A stretch of 33,858 nucleotides of DNA from Candidatus Neomarinimicrobiota bacterium (GTDB lineage: Bacteria; Fidelibacterota; Marinisomatia; Marinisomatales; S15-B10): contig JASLRT010000068.1 in the NCBI GenBank assembly GCA_030743815.1, positions 1-33,858 of the forward strand, in the 5' to 3' direction. Both the position numbers and the translations under genes were made by a program. Below are positions 12,099 through 22,402 of the stretch, in pieces (the stretch's first letter is position 1; every line of letters begins with the position of its first letter). The notes under the pieces are model-generated. The model was not told the origin of the DNA, did no database searches, and worked only from the letters and a program-made list of their open reading frames with translations.

Positions 12099-13466
<1,368 letters not shown>

Positions 13467-13503: not shown

Positions 13504-16500
13504 TTAGGCCAGCCCGTTTTCTTTCCGAATTGATACCGATTCCCTGATCACGGCCATGCCGGTCTGCCCATCTATCCAGATTGAGAGAGGATTCTCCAGT
13601 CTTACCCATGTCACCAGCGGTGACTGACGATAGACCGGCTGATCACCCAGCCAATCCCAGTCGATAAAGTCGTGTCCGCCTTTATGGCTTACCGTAAGGT
13701 AGCCCAGATGAAAACTGGTAACATTCTGGAAAAAATGGCTGCCGAATGACGGATCGATAGGAACCTCCTCCAAGCCTACCTCAACAATCACTTTGACCCG
13801 CGAAATATGATCCCATTTCACAGGGATGCCAAGCCATGGGTCGGCACTACCCCAGCGCCCCGGTCCCATGAGGAGATATCGTGTTCTACCTCGCATTTCC
13901 CGGTTGAACTCAGCAATCTCACTGGCCATTTCACCGGTCTTGGCTGTATCGAACACAGCAGGCTTCACAAACACCACGTCGCTCAAGTCTTCGATTCTTC
14001 CGTTTCCGAGCGCCAGACTGCTTCTACATACAATACTGTCCTCATCAATTGTCTTTAGCTGGATGTTACGATCAAGCGTATCGATGGTCATGGGACGCAC
14101 CTGAAGTAGACAGAATTCTGATTTTATTTCAGGATCATCTGAAATATTGCAGGCAAACTCCGCTTCGACGGGACATCCCAATGCCGCGTGCCCCGCATCC
14201 AGCAAGTGAGCAGATATATCGCTTAGAGGAAAGGTATCCGTCTTGAGAATATTGGCAAAAGTCACCACACGCGGTCCCTCATAGCTAAGTGAATCGCGGA
14301 CGATGTCATCTTGCGCTGTAATCACGCTGCCCACATGACGTAAAGTTCCGTCTTCTTCGGCGACAGAAAGAGGCAGGAGATCCAAGTTATCCTCTTCATT
14401 GATATCGTGTGGGTGGACCTCCTTTGTCAGATCGAGAGCGTAGAAAGCCGTCTGGGAGTTCTCCAGAATAGCTTCTGTGGAATAGAACTGAGGAAGTATG
14501 GAGGGGTATTTGGGTGAAAACCGCAGCGCTTTCCCCCCTTCGGCGATGGTCTTGCCCAAGCCCAGCGCCACATGAACCGCGCCTTCCTCACGCTTCATGT
14601 AGGAAACGGGATAGTAATTCAAGCTCTGTCCGACACCACTGAAGGTCGGATAGAAGCGGTTGTTCTTGGTTTCACCAACCAACTCTTGGATGATGATAGC
14701 CATCTTTTCGTCTTCTATTAGATGAGAGGATGCCTCCATGGCGACCTTCACTTCGTTTGAGAACATAGAGGCATAGACTAGTTTGATGGCAGCACTTACC
14801 TTCTTGACCCTGGCGGTGAGAGATCCGGATCGGTTCGAAATCATGTATGTGGCGTAGAGACCAGCAAGAGACTGGAAATGCATATCTTCCAGAAGTCCGG
14901 ATGAACGGATCGCAAGAGGCGCTTCCAGCTGACCAAGATACGTCTTGAGGAAACGGATAACTTCTTTCGAGAGTTGCGCTGAAAGAAACTTTCTCTTTAT
15001 TGCGTCAAAATCGGAAACGTCAAAAACAAACTGCCAGAGATCATTCTTGTTCATGAAATCGTCAAACTCATCAGTCGCCACAACAGCAATTCGTGGAATT
15101 CGGATGGTCACATTTGGAAAAGACTTTTGCAGATCCTTTTGCTCGATGAGATTGGTGGCGAATGCCAGCCCGCGGGCCTTTCCTCCCAGCGAACCTCCAC
15201 GGACACGAATGAAGTTCGAGGAGGGATCGATAGGTCCCTCTTTGTACTGGTAGACGCGTCCAGAATAGTGGACATGCCTTGTCATCTCTATGCAGCTCAC
15301 CAGATACTCACGCAAAGTCTGCGCATCCGGAAAATCAGATATCTGAACAATCCTGACCTGAGATGCGATGGAGAATTCTCCCCGGGCTGCCAGCCAGTTT
15401 GAGAAATGATTCCTGGTGGCATGATAAACAATGGATTCGTCGGTTACGGTCAACAGCAGTTTTTCCATTTCATGAAATGTTGTAGCGCGGGCTACTTCTT
15501 TACCGTTCGGTGCGCGAAATACAAAATCACCAAAACCAAAATTCTCCTTAATGAAAGTCCTAAGGTCGTGTATCAGTGTTTTTGAATGCTTGTATAAGAA
15601 AGCTGTTCTTAATTCATCAGCAGTAGCTTTGAGATTAAGATTCGACGACTGAAAAAGGATCGGCATAAGCGGCTCTTTTTCCCTGACCCACTGAATGAGC
15701 CGGTAGCCGGCATTGGGATCCTTCTGCCCTTTGCGGGGAAAGCGAACATCAGAGATGATGCCGAGGAGGTTTTCACCGCACATCTCCACATAGTTTTGAG
15801 CTTCTTCGTATTCCGTTGCTAAAAGGATCTTCGGGCGGGCGCGCAATCTTAGCAGCCGATGAGTATCGTTAAGACTGCGATCCATAAGCGCCCTGGTGTG
15901 ATAGAGAATCTCTGCATAGACGAGAGGCAGAATGATGGAATAGTAGAGCGGATTATCCTCAACAATAATGATTGCCCGCACATCACCCCGCTGAATATCG
16001 CGTTTAACGTTCTGTCTGTCTTCAATGTACTTAATGATCACCGGGAAAACGTTTGCATTGCCGCTCCAGACAAATGTTCTGTCAATGGCCTCCGGCTGAA
16101 GATGATCGCGAATATGGCTGATTTCAGTGACGTCATAGACCAGCAAGATAACGGGAGTGTTGGGATAGTTCTGCTTCACGCGGCGGCCAAACGCATTGGG
16201 GTCCATATCGGTGATCCTGAGAAGAGTAATGATAAGATCATAATGACGGCGCGAGAGCATTTCCAATGCTTCCGATGCGCTGGAGGCGCGCCATACCCTC
16301 GGCGCATAGCTGAGGTTCATTCCGAGATACTCTGAAAGTATCTGTTCAGTCAGCCGGCCGTCCTCTTCCAGGATGTAGGCGTCGTAAGGCGACGCCACCA
16401 AGAGAATCTCGTGCACCCGGTGCAACATTAGATCGTGGTAGTCCCAGCGCGGAAGCCTGTCGGCTTCAGATTGCTTCACCATGCTGTTGAACCTCTCATC

Positions 16501-16560
16501 AATTTCTTCCCGTAAAGATTGCCTCTGGAACCTACAATTCAGCCGGGTTAGACGCAACAC
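13504..16560 (-). CDS. Two-receiver / PEP-synthase-like ATP-grasp fusion protein
   Basis: The protein has 1018 residues. Residues 50-180 look like a receiver domain, but L113 stands where the phosphorylated Asp should be. Residues 195-340 look like a second receiver, with acidic E201-D202, D271 in the acceptor position (GIISDVRF) and K324/K327. Residues 450-825 match the nucleotide-binding domain of PEP synthase and pyruvate phosphate dikinase: GGSLGGKARG, IRSSGLLED, IIIQELV and LLQVRPM. The last 190 residues hold MGPGRWGSADPWLGIPVKW, a block I recall from similar Bacteroidetes proteins. The swivelling phosphohistidine domain and the PEP/pyruvate TIM barrel are missing, so ordinary PEP synthesis is unlikely. 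The start is unclear: GTG at 16560, or ATG at 16482 after GAGAGG. It lies 43 bases after smc. The function is unknown. Confidence 0.85.
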   Translation of the reverse strand: MLRLTRLNCRFQRQSLREEIDERFNSMVKQSEADRLPRWDYHDLMLHRVHEILLVASPYDAYILEEDGRLTEQILSEYLGMNLSYAPRVWRASSASEALEMLSRRHYDLIITLLRITDMDPNAFGRRVKQNYPNTPVILLVYDVTEISHIRDHLQPEAIDRTFVWSGNANVFPVIIKYIEDRQNVKRDIQRGDVRAIIIVEDNPLYYSIILPLVYAEILYHTRALMDRSLNDTHRLLRLRARPKILLATEYEEAQNYVEMCGENLLGIISDVRFPRKGQKDPNAGYRLIQWVREKEPLMPILFQSSNLNLKATADELRTAFLYKHSKTLIHDLRTFIKENFGFGDFVFRAPNGKEVARATTFHEMEKLLLTVTDESIVYHATRNHFSNWLAARGEFSIASQVRIVQISDFPDAQTLREYLVSCIEMTRHVHYSGRVYQYKEGPIDPSSNFIRVRGGSLGGKARGLAFATNLIEQKDLQKSFPNVTIRIPRIAVVATDEFDDFMNKNDLWQFVFDVSDFDAIKRKFLSAQLSKEVIRFLKTYLGQLEAPLAIRSSGLLEDMHFQSLAGLYATYMISNRSGSLTARVKKVSAAIKLVYASMFSNEVKVAMEASSHLIEDEKMAIIIQELVGETKNNRFYPTFSGVGQSLNYYPVSYMKREEGAVHVALGLGKTIAEGGKALRFSPKYPSILPQFYSTEAILENSQTAFYALDLTKEVHPHDINEEDNLDLLPLSVAEEDGTLRHVGSVITAQDDIVRDSLSYEGPRVVTFANILKTDTFPLSDISAHLLDAGHAALGCPVEAEFACNISDDPEIKSEFCLLQVRPMTIDTLDRNIQLKTIDEDSIVCRSSLALGNGRIEDLSDVVFVKPAVFDTAKTGEMASEIAEFNREMRGRTRYLLMGPGRWGSADPWLGIPVKWDHISRVKVIVEVGLEEVPIDPSFGSHFFQNVTSFHLGYLTVSHKGGHDFIDWDWLGDQPVYRQSPLVTWVRLENPLSIWIDGQTGMAVIRESVSIRKENGLA

Positions 16561-16603: not shown

Positions 16604-19600
16604 TCAGTCAAACTTGACTGATACTATATTGGAAACACCCGACTGGGCCATTGTCACACCGTAGAGAAACTTTGCCGCCTCCATAGTGAGCTTGTTGTGA
16701 GTGACAATAATAAACTGCGTATCCTCAGAGAATTTCTGCAGCACTTTCGTGAACTTACTAATGTTGTTATCATCCAGCGGCGCATCCACCTCGTCAAGGA
16801 TACAGAAGGGACTCGGCTTTACAAGATAGATTGCAAACAGAAGCGAAATAGCGGTCAGTGCCTTTTCACCAGAAGAGAGCATTCTGAGGTTTTTGGTATG
16901 TTTGCCTGGCGGTTTCGCCAGGATTGATATGGAGGCCTCAAGAGGATCGTCAACACCGGTGAGATCAAGGTCTGACTCACCCCCATCAAAAAACAGTTTG
17001 AATGTCCCCCTGAAATTGTCACGAATCTTGCCGAAAGTTTCAAGAAACTGATCCCTAGCAGCTTTGTCGATGCGGCCCATTGTTTCCATCAGGCTCGCCT
17101 CTGACTTTAGCAGATCGGCCAGCTGTTCTTGCAGGAATTCCAGCCGCGCGCTTTCTTCACCGTATTCGTCCTTTACCGCCATGTTTATGGGACCGATCCT
17201 CTCAATACTGCGTTCAATTCTGTCGATCTCAAAGGTAAGATCTTCTATTGAGCCGGAGACGTCAGTAACCTCCGTCAGATCCGAGCGGTACTTTTCACGG
17301 ATACGGCTCTCGATCAACTCGATCTGACCTTCGTAGTCAGCCACCTGCAGCTCCATTCTTTTCACCTTTTCCGCCAGTCTCTCCCTCTCCTTCTGCTCAT
17401 CCCTGATCTCACGTTCAAGCTTCTCGATCTCACGGAATGTCCCGCGAAACGCCTCCTCCTTCAACTCTTTTACAGATAACACCTTTTTATATTGCGCGTT
17501 CAGCTTTTGCAGCTTCTTCACTTCCGCACTCTTATCGTTATCCAGCTGCACCATCTCTTCCTTCAGACGTGAAGTCTCTTCCGTCAGATGTACAATCTTT
17601 TTCTCCATCTCATCAATACTGTCTTTCGCCGCCTCTATCCGATAGCTCAGTGTCTCCTTCTCATTCTCCAGGCTGACCAGCTCAAAACGGACCTCCTGAA
17701 TGGCGGTATTTTTTTCCTCACGCCTGTTTTTCACCTGCTCCAGCGATTCACGTGCCAAGGCAATCTTGCCCTCGTAATTCTCCTCCTGAGTCTTAAGATC
17801 GTGCAACTGAGGTGTCATCTTGTCTAAAGATTTCTCCAGTCCGAGGATATCATGCCTTGTGGTGACTATCTGATGCGTCAAAGCCTTCAGGGCGTCCACG
17901 GTCTGTGAGATCATGTATTCATTGCGAGTGATCTGTCTCTCAACTTCAGACAGGGCGTCAATGTCAGCACTCAGTTCGCCGGATATAGCCTGGTGTTTGT
18001 CTTCGCTTGATGATAGTTTTTCATCCGCTTCGCGCACATTTTCCTGCACTATGTTACCCTTCTTCACCAGCTTATCTATTGTGGCATCCAGCTCCTTCAA
18101 TTTTTCTTTTCTCCCCAGGATGCTCACTTCTTCCTGAACGTCAACGCTGGAAATGGCGCCGGTATTCTCATAATAGCGACCCGACAAATCAGCGATACTA
18201 CCCGAAAAACTTTTCGATTTCCGCAACCGTTCTGCAGCACCGGAATCTTGCACCAGTGTGAGGTCACCGAACAGGAAACGGATCAACGGCACCACATCTT
18301 TCTGCGTATTAATCACGTCGCAGGCCTGAGCGACAATTCCCTTACCGGCGGGCGCTTTGCCTGAACGGGACGGACCCGGCGGCACACTGTCAAGAGGGAT
18401 GATAGCGACATTGCCCAGCTTTCGTTCTCGGATGTCGTCAAGCACGGTGTAGGCCGACTCCCGCGTTTCGCATACCAAGTATTTCGCCTTCAGTCCCAGA
18501 CTGGCTTCCAGGGCACGACGATACTTCTGATCGACTTCAATCAGATCCGCAACACTCCCGAGAACGGACGGATAGTCTTCTAAGTGATTGAGTACATGCC
18601 TGATCCCGGAAGGGTATCCTTCCTTGCTCTCTATGATTTCGCTGTAGAACTGACGTTGCGATTCAAGACTTTCCACCTGGTTCGCAATCTTATGAAACTC
18701 AAGGGTCAGATCGTGCCGTTCGGAGCGCAGAGTCTGGATCTCTTCATCCAGCTGCTCGATGGCTTTGCGCTCCGTAGCGACAGATTGCTCAAGATCTTTC
18801 CTCTGATTCAAATATTTCTTCTGCTGCTGCAGGATCGTTTTCTTCTCACTCTCAGCTTCGTCAGCATCCGATTCGAGCGTTTCCAGGTACTCACCCTTAT
18901 CTTCCAGTGTCTGCTGTGTTCTCTCCAGAAGTGAGCGAAGGTCGTTCAGTTTCCTCAGATGATCAATGTGATGAGAACTGAGACGCTGGAGATTCTCTTC
19001 AACTCTGCGGTAGTTTTCATCGCTCTCATCAAACTCTTCTCGCCGCGCATTATATTGCCGCTCCTTATCCTCAATCTTGGGAGCGAAAGTCTCCATCTCA
19101 ACTTCAAGTTCGCTGATGCTGAATTTCTGGGCACCGATTTTCTCTTCGAGCTCCTCTTTCTCTACCGAAAGTCGCTCGATAGTTCTTTCAGCACTCTTTA
19201 CCTGCTCAGTGATTACCAGAATACGATTGTTGGTAGATTGCCTGGCGTCAGACAGTTCATTCAATTTCTCCTGCATTGATCTCAATTCTAACTCTTCACT
19301 CTTGTAAGTCGTCCGCAACTGTTCCAGAGAAGATTCATGGATTTTCTCCCCCTCCACACCGATGGAACGCTGATGGGTCAATTCGGTAACACTCTTGACA
19401 AGCGGTACCAGAGCTGAGTTGAGCTCCTGACGCTGAAGAAACGCCCGCTCAACCTCCTTCTGCTGAAGTTTATCTACCAGTTTGGCGTGGCGGTCGTAAC
19501 GTTTAAGCTGCAGCTTGAGAGCATTCACTTTGCCGTCAACTTCGGCGATTATGTCGTTCACCCTGTTGATATCAGCGGTTGTTGCTTCAATTTTCAGCAA

Positions 19601-20131
19601 CGTCGATTTTCGCTGATGCTTGTACTTGTTAATGCCGGCGGCCTCTTCAAACATCCTTCTCCGGTCTTCCGCATTCTCGCTGAGAATGTCTTCAATCATC
19701 TTCAATTCGATGACTGAATAAGCGTCCGCTCCCATACCGGTATCAACAAAAAGGTTGTGAATATCTTTCAGACGGCACTTTGCCCGGTTGATCATGTACT
19801 CACTTTCGCCATTCCTGAAAACGCGGCGCGTGATTTCTACATCCGTATAGTCCACCGGTAGCTTCCCTTTATCGTTGTGGACGGTAAGATTGACTTCGCA
19901 GACGCCCAGTGGCTTCCTCGATTCTGAGCCGTTGAAAATAATATCCTCCATCTTCTTGCTACGCAGCATGGTGTACTTCTGCTCACCGAGGACCCATCTC
20001 ACCGCATCGACGATATTCGTTTTGCCGCAACCGTTTGGTCCCACGATAGCGGTGATACCATCGCCAAAATGGAGCTTCTCCTTCTTGGCAAAGGACTTGA
20101 AGCCGTGCATCCTGAGTTCTGAGATATACAT
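16604..20131 (-). CDS. smc: Chromosome segregation protein SMC
   Basis: The protein has 1175 residues, full length. Walker A is GPNGCGKTN (31-39), with Cys-Thr in place of the usual Ser-Ser. Two long coiled coils flank a hinge (about 510-640, with YPSGIRHVLNHL and GSVADLIEV). The C-terminal head has the signature MLSSGEKALTAI, Walker B CILDEVDAPLDD and the His switch FIIVTHNK. SMC forms ring dimers with ScpA and ScpB to compact and separate chromosomes; no scp gene is in this window. The ATG at 20131 has no ribosome site. The 111-base gap after the HIT gene holds no gene. Confidence 0.97.
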   Translation of the reverse strand: MYISELRMHGFKSFAKKEKLHFGDGITAIVGPNGCGKTNIVDAVRWVLGEQKYTMLRSKKMEDIIFNGSESRKPLGVCEVNLTVHNDKGKLPVDYTDVEITRRVFRNGESEYMINRAKCRLKDIHNLFVDTGMGADAYSVIELKMIEDILSENAEDRRRMFEEAAGINKYKHQRKSTLLKIEATTADINRVNDIIAEVDGKVNALKLQLKRYDRHAKLVDKLQQKEVERAFLQRQELNSALVPLVKSVTELTHQRSIGVEGEKIHESSLEQLRTTYKSEELELRSMQEKLNELSDARQSTNNRILVITEQVKSAERTIERLSVEKEELEEKIGAQKFSISELEVEMETFAPKIEDKERQYNARREEFDESDENYRRVEENLQRLSSHHIDHLRKLNDLRSLLERTQQTLEDKGEYLETLESDADEAESEKKTILQQQKKYLNQRKDLEQSVATERKAIEQLDEEIQTLRSERHDLTLEFHKIANQVESLESQRQFYSEIIESKEGYPSGIRHVLNHLEDYPSVLGSVADLIEVDQKYRRALEASLGLKAKYLVCETRESAYTVLDDIRERKLGNVAIIPLDSVPPGPSRSGKAPAGKGIVAQACDVINTQKDVVPLIRFLFGDLTLVQDSGAAERLRKSKSFSGSIADLSGRYYENTGAISSVDVQEEVSILGRKEKLKELDATIDKLVKKGNIVQENVREADEKLSSSEDKHQAISGELSADIDALSEVERQITRNEYMISQTVDALKALTHQIVTTRHDILGLEKSLDKMTPQLHDLKTQEENYEGKIALARESLEQVKNRREEKNTAIQEVRFELVSLENEKETLSYRIEAAKDSIDEMEKKIVHLTEETSRLKEEMVQLDNDKSAEVKKLQKLNAQYKKVLSVKELKEEAFRGTFREIEKLEREIRDEQKERERLAEKVKRMELQVADYEGQIELIESRIREKYRSDLTEVTDVSGSIEDLTFEIDRIERSIERIGPINMAVKDEYGEESARLEFLQEQLADLLKSEASLMETMGRIDKAARDQFLETFGKIRDNFRGTFKLFFDGGESDLDLTGVDDPLEASISILAKPPGKHTKNLRMLSSGEKALTAISLLFAIYLVKPSPFCILDEVDAPLDDNNISKFTKVLQKFSEDTQFIIVTHNKLTMEAAKFLYGVTMAQSGVSNIVSVKFD

Positions 20132-21325: not shown

Positions 21326-21955
21326 TTAATTCAGTTTCCTGCCCATCATTATTTTAAAGAGAGTACCACTGTATTCATTCTTGCCATCTACATCCTTGCC
21401 CATGGGCAGAAAATCATATCCAAGGGCAATACTCACAAACTGTTTTGTCTGAATCTGAAAGTCAGCACCGATGCCGAGAAAAGCTCCGCCATGAAAAGAT
21501 GACTTCATTTCCCGGATCTGCTGGGAAAAGCCGACATTTTCCGGTGAATCCAGAATACCCAGCGGGCCGGCTAGGACGACAGCAAATGGACTGAAATTAT
21601 TGGCTATCTGACCAATGAAAGGGTGGAACTTTAATCCTATAAAGAGCGGCACCAGCACCAGGTTTACTTCGCCAACCTTGCGGGTATAGCCTGTATAGGG
21701 ATCGTATACAGGCATTTCCGTCTCCCCTGTTATGCTGAGGAGTTTAAACTGGCTGAAAAACTGGAGATTCCTTGCTAAAACCCTGGTGTAAAAGACACCT
21801 ATACCAGTGCCATGGCTTTCAGTCTCCAGGGAAAAGCCGAAAGTATTACCCGACAGGCTATAACCGGGATCGAGGGCCGACTGCGCACTCCCCAAATGAA
21901 CCGCCGTAAAGAAAATCAGGGAGATGAAATATCTCCGAGGTCTCAGTTGCAGCAT
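21326..21955 (-). CDS. Secreted beta-barrel-like protein (hypothetical)
   Basis: From the ATG at 21955 the protein has 209 residues and begins with a clear signal peptide (RRYFISLIFFTAVHLGSA, cleavage after S-A-Q or nearby). The rest alternates hydrophobic and polar residues with many Gly and Tyr, and ends in a strand-like motif, as in small outer membrane beta-barrels. I see no named family. The frame is open upstream to 22111, but those codons are not protein-like and would place the signal sequence inside the protein. No strong ribosome site is visible. It is joined to rsmE by a 2-base gap. Confidence 0.65.
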   Translation of the reverse strand: MLQLRPRRYFISLIFFTAVHLGSAQSALDPGYSLSGNTFGFSLETESHGTGIGVFYTRVLARNLQFFSQFKLLSITGETEMPVYDPYTGYTRKVGEVNLVLVPLFIGLKFHPFIGQIANNFSPFAVVLAGPLGILDSPENVGFSQQIREMKSSFHGGAFLGIGADFQIQTKQFVSIALGYDFLPMGKDVDGKNEYSGTLFKIMMGRKLN

Positions 21956-22402
21956 CACGTCAGAGAATTTACCACTTTCCGTCGAGGGAGCAAAAAGTTT
22001 TAGACAGTTACGAACAAAATAGCCGAGCCTGTCCAAAACGATTATTTTACAGCAGATAACCCGCCATAAATGACGGGAAAATACTATTAGCCGGCTTGCT
22101 CCCCCTGCCATCCACTCATCTGGACTTATCGAGCAGACAAGCTTTGGATTGTCTGCCCAGAATCCTCACACCTTTCTTTCTCGCAATCACTATTGGGGAT
22201 TGCTATTAGATCAAGTGTAAAAGTCTGTCCAAGATGAATGTTGTACGCGGAAGTATGTAAATAATTATCAGCATATTGCGTTTCCACGGTTATCACGGTA
22301 TCCCTCCCTTTAAGTAAGCCTTTCTGTCATCGAGAAATTATAGTAGATTTAACCTGCCCCAATCTAAGACGTCTAAAAATCAATAAGAGAAAGGGAAAAA
22401 AG
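21956..22402. other. Divergent intergenic region with three inverted repeats
   Basis: This stretch of 447 bases carries no credible gene. It contains an imperfect 18-base palindrome (22060-22077, CCCG-CAT pairing with ATG-CGGG), a perfect 8-bp inverted repeat (22133-22156), and GCAATC/GATTGC at 22183-22203. TATAGT at 22339-22344 may be the -10 box of the lipoprotein gene, but I see no matching -35. Promoters for both flanking genes should be here. Confidence 0.5.
22133..22156. repeat. Perfect 8-bp inverted repeat
   Basis: GCAGACAA (22133-22140) and TTGTCTGC (22149-22156) are separated by 8 bases. There is no T run on either strand, so it is not a typical terminator. It could be an operator site for the divergent genes. 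Confidence 0.5.

Follow-up and report, generated by a model that had tools for sequence, protein, structure and literature searches.

Among enzymes with a PPDK_N-type ATP-grasp domain (PF01326), PEP synthase and PPDK pass phosphate through a His domain and have a PEP/pyruvate barrel, and the dikinase-like enzymes RPH (rifampin phosphotransferase), PigC (prodigiosin ligase) and GWD join the same ATP-grasp to a non-PEP acceptor and retain both a canonical His domain and a domain that binds the acceptor. Dedicated proteins that control a nitrogen-assimilation enzyme are represented by GlnE and GlnD, and in orphan response regulators with enzymatic output an enzyme is fused directly to a receiver whose phosphorylation site is complete. 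Glutamate dehydrogenase (GDH) is a main ammonium-assimilating enzyme of gut Bacteroides, and we know of no comparable protein dedicated to GDH control; the openly (CC-) licensed literature likewise yielded no link between a PPDK_N-type or PEP/pyruvate-binding protein and the control of GDH.

The gene described here lies in a window of 33,858 nucleotides (the whole stretch of DNA that was analysed, from a Candidatus Neomarinimicrobiota bacterium) and encodes, in order, a receiver, a second receiver, a PPDK/PEP-synthase-type ATP-grasp domain and a conserved C-terminal domain (Table 1). Like PEP synthase and PPDK, this fusion protein has a whole ATP-grasp with invariant motifs, followed by a further domain in the position that the His domain holds there; unlike them, it has no detectable PEP-utilizers domain or barrel, bears two receivers in front and has a GDH gene as its neighbor. 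Nor did sequence comparison show in it the canonical His domain and the acceptor-binding domain of RPH, PigC and GWD. It resembles orphan response regulators in linking an enzyme to a receiver that has all its phosphorylation residues, but its output is an ATP-grasp, a pseudo-receiver precedes the competent one, and no paired histidine kinase gene occurs near it. With GlnE and GlnD it would share the proposed logic, whereas their type of Pol-beta nucleotidyltransferase domain is absent from the window protein and present only in its relatives of 1064-1070 aa. Judged from its sequence and gene neighborhood, the fusion is probably an unrecognised controller of bacterial nitrogen uptake, and we see an even chance that it is specifically a GDH-control protein, which would use ATP to modify or switch GDH and receive its signal through receiver 2.

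Table 1. Coordinates of the fusion gene, its parts, the adjacent GDH gene and the loci of variant relatives (window positions unless a locus is named).
Feature	Position	Strand	Basis or remark
REC-REC-ATP-grasp-GRWGS protein	13504..16560	-	open frame of 1018 aa from GTG at 16560
Receiver 1, residues ~52-180	16021..16407	-	Pfam Response_reg; columns of 47 orthologs
Receiver 2, residues ~194-335	15556..15981	-	column counts; without Pfam call
D271 acceptor codon	15748..15750	-	47/47
Linker, residues 341-445	15226..15540	-	conserved H380, H385, F386, W389
PPDK_N-type ATP-grasp, residues 452-828	14077..15207	-	Pfam E 1e-28; hhalign; invariant motifs
Conserved C-terminal domain, residues 832-1010	13531..14067	-	GPGRWGS and SxG[ST]HFF motifs; no Pfam family
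GPGRWGS motif, residues 899-905	13846..13866	-	G899, G901, R902, W903, G904 invariant also in distant forms
H942 codon, candidate phosphohistidine	13735..13737	-	kept throughout the 47 orthologs and 8 distant relatives
NADP-specific glutamate dehydrogenase (GDH)	12129..13466	+	NF006929 over cut-off; proposed partner
Relatives of 773-800 aa	L069, L070, L071, L134-L137, L141-L143		beside archaeal-type GDH
Relative of 1064-1070 aa	L068:5898-9110	-	
Relative of 1064-1070 aa	L067:11471-14683	+	
Relative of 1064-1070 aa	L074:4597-7791	-	

The open reading frame first described from the letters alone is real and lies on the minus strand, and the conservation of the family over two phyla rules out chance. 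Because the orthologs begin at about residue 27 of the 1018 aa frame, where the window has an ATG at 16482 preceded by GAGAGG, this ATG is probably the true start. Pfam matched the window protein to Response_reg at residues 66-151 (E 7e-9) and to PPDK_N at 457-828 (E 1e-28), with no match to PEP-utilizers or to the PEP barrel, and residue columns were counted in an alignment of 47 full-length sequences of the family, drawn from Neomarinimicrobiota and Bacteroidota. Receiver 1 keeps its acidic pair, and its acceptor position, L113 in the window protein, is Met in 40 orthologs, Leu in six and Thr in one; because the profile matches yet the acceptor Asp is replaced, its sequence identifies it as a pseudo-receiver. 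The second region is a receiver by its residue columns, though without a Pfam call: E201, D271 and K324 are present in 47 of 47 orthologs, D202 and S305 in 46, which makes up the full set of phosphorylation residues. The linker that follows has a sub-threshold match to DUF5752 at 358-427 (E 2e-4, below the curated cut-off). The preliminary description had proposed two receiver-like domains coupled to the ATP-binding half of a dikinase, with Leu at the first acceptor site (Met or Leu in 46 of 47 orthologs), Asp retained at the second, and no PEP/pyruvate barrel; all of this agrees with the Pfam matches and residue columns, and the protein stops about 190 residues past the ATP-grasp.

Membership of the ATP-grasp domain in the PPDK_N superfamily (PF01326) follows from the profile together with the GGK, RSS..ED and E...Q.RP motifs. 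Invariant in the 47 members and in eight distant relatives are K461 (GGK), R552, S553, S554, E558 and D559 (RSS..ED), E801 and Q820. Alignment by hhalign against the ATP-grasp domains of PEP synthase gave a probability of 99.2% with the motifs in register, the ATP-grasp profile picks up solved structures of the PEP-synthase type, and the best partial matches of the window protein in NCBIfam are PigC and PEP synthase. The site thus appears intact, and the suggestion that it might be dead, named in the preliminary description as a possible refutation, found no support in nucleotide-site motifs that are all invariant.

The C-terminal domain has the conserved stretches GPGRWG, LGIP, VIVE and SxG[ST]HFF, and H942 in the last of these is kept even in relatives with only 22-28% identity. 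A Pfam search with this domain from 29 members produced no convincing family match and no PEP-utilizers (PF00391) match, and the matches of its profile against the PDB look like chance. Against a PEP-utilizers profile that we built from PPDK, PEP synthase, enzyme I and relatives, hhalign returned a probability of 1%, and in hmmsearch the domain scored the same as shuffled sequence; homology to a known His domain was rejected at the sequence level on the strength of Pfam, hhalign and hmmsearch. AlphaFold2 models made without an alignment (residues 826-1018 and 450-1018) had a mean pLDDT of about 32 and were unusable. The claim that the protein lacks a His domain therefore stands in part: no known one is recognisable, and this means only that known ones are undetectable by sequence, but residues 832-1010 are not a mere tail, being a conserved domain with an invariant histidine.

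By the sequences compared, the fusion is an old, conserved family in Neomarinimicrobiota and Bacteroidota. At E<=0.001 (distant forms included), matches occur in 121 of 149 genomes of the phylum of the window, and the genome of the window has a single copy; the fusion is absent from all the reduced genomes (0.7-1.0 Mb) of family f2, and a search of viral contigs returned no relative. The preliminary description placed similar proteins in Bacteroidetes, and they do occur there (Parabacteroides distasonis, Phocaeicola massiliensis and a Prevotella sp.) under no specific name, the annotation, where any exists, being only 'PEP/pyruvate-binding domain-containing protein'. BT1971, considered as the dikinase-like gene of the gdh region of B. 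thetaiotaomicron, was rejected, since the literature names it a catalase.

In the window, the GDH gene is convergent with the fusion gene across a gap of 37 bp; on the other side, an SMC gene (16604-20131) precedes the fusion gene by 43 bp, and comF-like, PGK and TIM genes lie farther out in the window. When the fusion and GDH matches of the same 149 genomes were placed together, at least 86 of 115 family loci had a GDH gene within 3.1 kb (84 by pairing, and those of G107 and G056 in loci read directly), a count drawn from related, and so not independent, genomes. This adjacency is present in 16 of 25 families. The 84 paired loci comprise 70 convergent, 12 tandem and two divergent arrangements, so that most pairs, being convergent, do not form one operon. 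GDH is the one neighbor that persists: SMC and PGK/TIM are common to only part of the loci, and relative to them the GDH-fusion pair stays together but has opposite orientations in different lineages. In P. distasonis and P. massiliensis, gdh adjoins the fusion; the nearest copy points away from the fusion, which is on its upstream side, and a second gdh lies 3.5-4 kb off. The Prevotella locus has no gdh nearby. Several of the non-adjacent cases lie at contig ends. Adjacency is lost in most of f15 and in all four genomes of f16, where the genes are truly separated. Family f2 has kept GDH (L124-L132), though its genomes lack the fusion, and in all nine of these loci GDH has Leu at the position of W391 in fusion-associated GDH; only this position stood out when associated and unassociated GDH were compared, with no clear signature and no convincing modification site.

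Variant relatives share with the fusion only the ATP-grasp and the C-terminal domain, and come as a core alone (579-586 aa), with another N-terminus (773-800 aa) or in a longer form (1064-1070 aa). In every locus read, the receiver-less 773-800 aa form stands in tandem directly downstream of a GDH of archaeal type, for which the best NCBIfam model is NF040817 and which is about 31% identical to the GDH of the window; the 579-586 and 1064-1070 aa forms occur together in an apparent operon with the same GDH type. The longest form has, by eye, a GAF-like N-terminus and ends in an NTP_transf_2 domain (Pol-beta nucleotidyltransferase) with the motif GS...DIDIL, an addition reminiscent of the control of nitrogen enzymes by GlnE and GlnD, and its loci are possibly a GDH nucleotidylylation system. 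A single constant core is thus found with two subfamilies of GDH, in two arrangements of the genes and with differing domains for signal input, which makes GDH the best candidate partner of the fusion. A signal-controlled action on another protein, as originally envisaged, fits this evidence, and the gene neighborhood suggests GDH as its target.

On the mechanism that we propose, a sensor kinase would phosphorylate D271, and the phosphorylated receiver would gate the ATP-grasp, which would cleave ATP as its relatives do; the phosphate would then pass, perhaps via H942, to GDH or to a regulatory site on GDH and change its activity. A donor for D271 is possible because the genome has two HisKA kinases, neither of them on the contig of the window. 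Its receiver-bearing proteins number four: the fusion, an NtrC/AtoC-like sigma-54 activator with an adjacent kinase, a single-domain receiver and PorX, the T9SS response regulator (over cut-off; L148:1087-2646, plus strand). If GDH is indeed modified, this would be a new control system for the enzyme, and a dikinase-type ATP-grasp would work without the classical His domain. The question is directly testable in ordinary laboratory Bacteroides, since the gene is conserved, stands next to GDH in two phyla and has its ATP-grasp and receiver sites intact. A more far-reaching version, in which a receiver-gated phosphotransfer enzyme activates GDH, GRWGS/H942 marks a new phosphohistidine-bearing domain that replaces the classical swivel domain, the protein is the trans-acting GDH factor of Bacteroides, and a GlnE-like layer of GDH control exists in two phyla, is in our view speculative and probably not correct as a whole. 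Baggio and Morrison, in 1996, reportedly dealt with trans-acting genes affecting Bacteroides GDH, to go by their title, and their report may concern the fusion family.

How phosphate would leave the ATP-grasp admits two alternatives. The C-terminal domain could be a very diverged swivel domain, with H942, or S/T905 at the His position, as its phosphate-bearing residue; the protein would then be a complete dikinase-type kinase, which is compatible with the control of GDH. The domain occupies the place of the PEP-synthase His domain, its SxG[ST] is followed by an invariant His, and a V/I-DG-xxG stretch stands at its end. When the ATP-grasp alignment is forced to extend in hhalign, it enters that PEP-synthase domain at low posterior values; set against this, the Pfam, hhalign and hmmsearch comparisons described above leave such an origin doubtful. 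In the preliminary description, one possibility was instead that a separate protein with a phosphohistidine takes over the phosphate from the ATP-grasp, for which there is a parallel in the split dikinases of some relatives: in L094, L095 and L096, PEP synthase is seemingly divided into an ATP-grasp ORF of about 360 aa and an adjacent His-domain ORF of about 640 aa. The analysis gave no support for this carrier: the only PEP-utilizers domain in the genome of the window is inside PPDK, the related genome G048 has the fusion and no such domain at all, and none was seen among the neighbors of the fusion, so that we consider a free carrier highly improbable.

Two further explanations concern what the fusion does beside GDH. 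Most known PPDK_N enzymes have a small molecule as their substrate (PEP synthase, RPH and PigC, to which the matches here are weak), and in the tandem locus L069 a CarB gene comes after the 773-800 aa relative, which points to nitrogen-metabolism clusters; the fusion might accordingly be a metabolic enzyme that activates a small molecule of glutamate/2-oxoglutarate metabolism and sits beside GDH as part of the same pathway. We regard this as unlikely, because what is attached to this one core, be it receivers, a nucleotidyltransferase or a GAF-like N-terminus, looks regulatory, and no other pathway gene is common to all loci read. It is also conceivable that the ATP-grasp only senses ATP or AMP and that the protein acts on GDH through binding, as a regulator or chaperone. 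This would suit the adjacency equally well, and the lack of any detectable phosphohistidine domain of known type or acceptor barrel also speaks for it. However, the Lys of GGK, the Arg of RSS, E801 and Q820 are invariant in two phyla and in the short forms, beyond the needs of binding, and a non-catalytic regulator seems to us quite unlikely. GDH control by an ATP-using protein is the reading that we prefer.

In f16, an acetyl-CoA synthetase gene is found near the fusion at two loci and a histone-deacetylase-like gene at a third (the three being L043:3459-5393, L051:4368-6323 and L045:6111-7010). A conserved 261 aa gene without a Pfam or NCBIfam match adjoins an RsmE-type gene in the window (21326-22111, minus strand). 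In f20, a 606 aa gene with no Pfam match lies between the fusion and GDH (L056:10966-12786, plus strand), and in other f20 genomes the two genes are likewise some 2.7 kb apart. Family f23 (L040, L041) belongs to another class, yet its fusion and its GDH both group with the class of the window (node support 0.82 in the fusion tree and 0.57 in the GDH tree), while the identities of its Der and S2 are ordinary for its distance, which suggests that the pair was transferred together. Finally, at L055:6678-14421, one GDH gene is flanked by two copies of the fusion.
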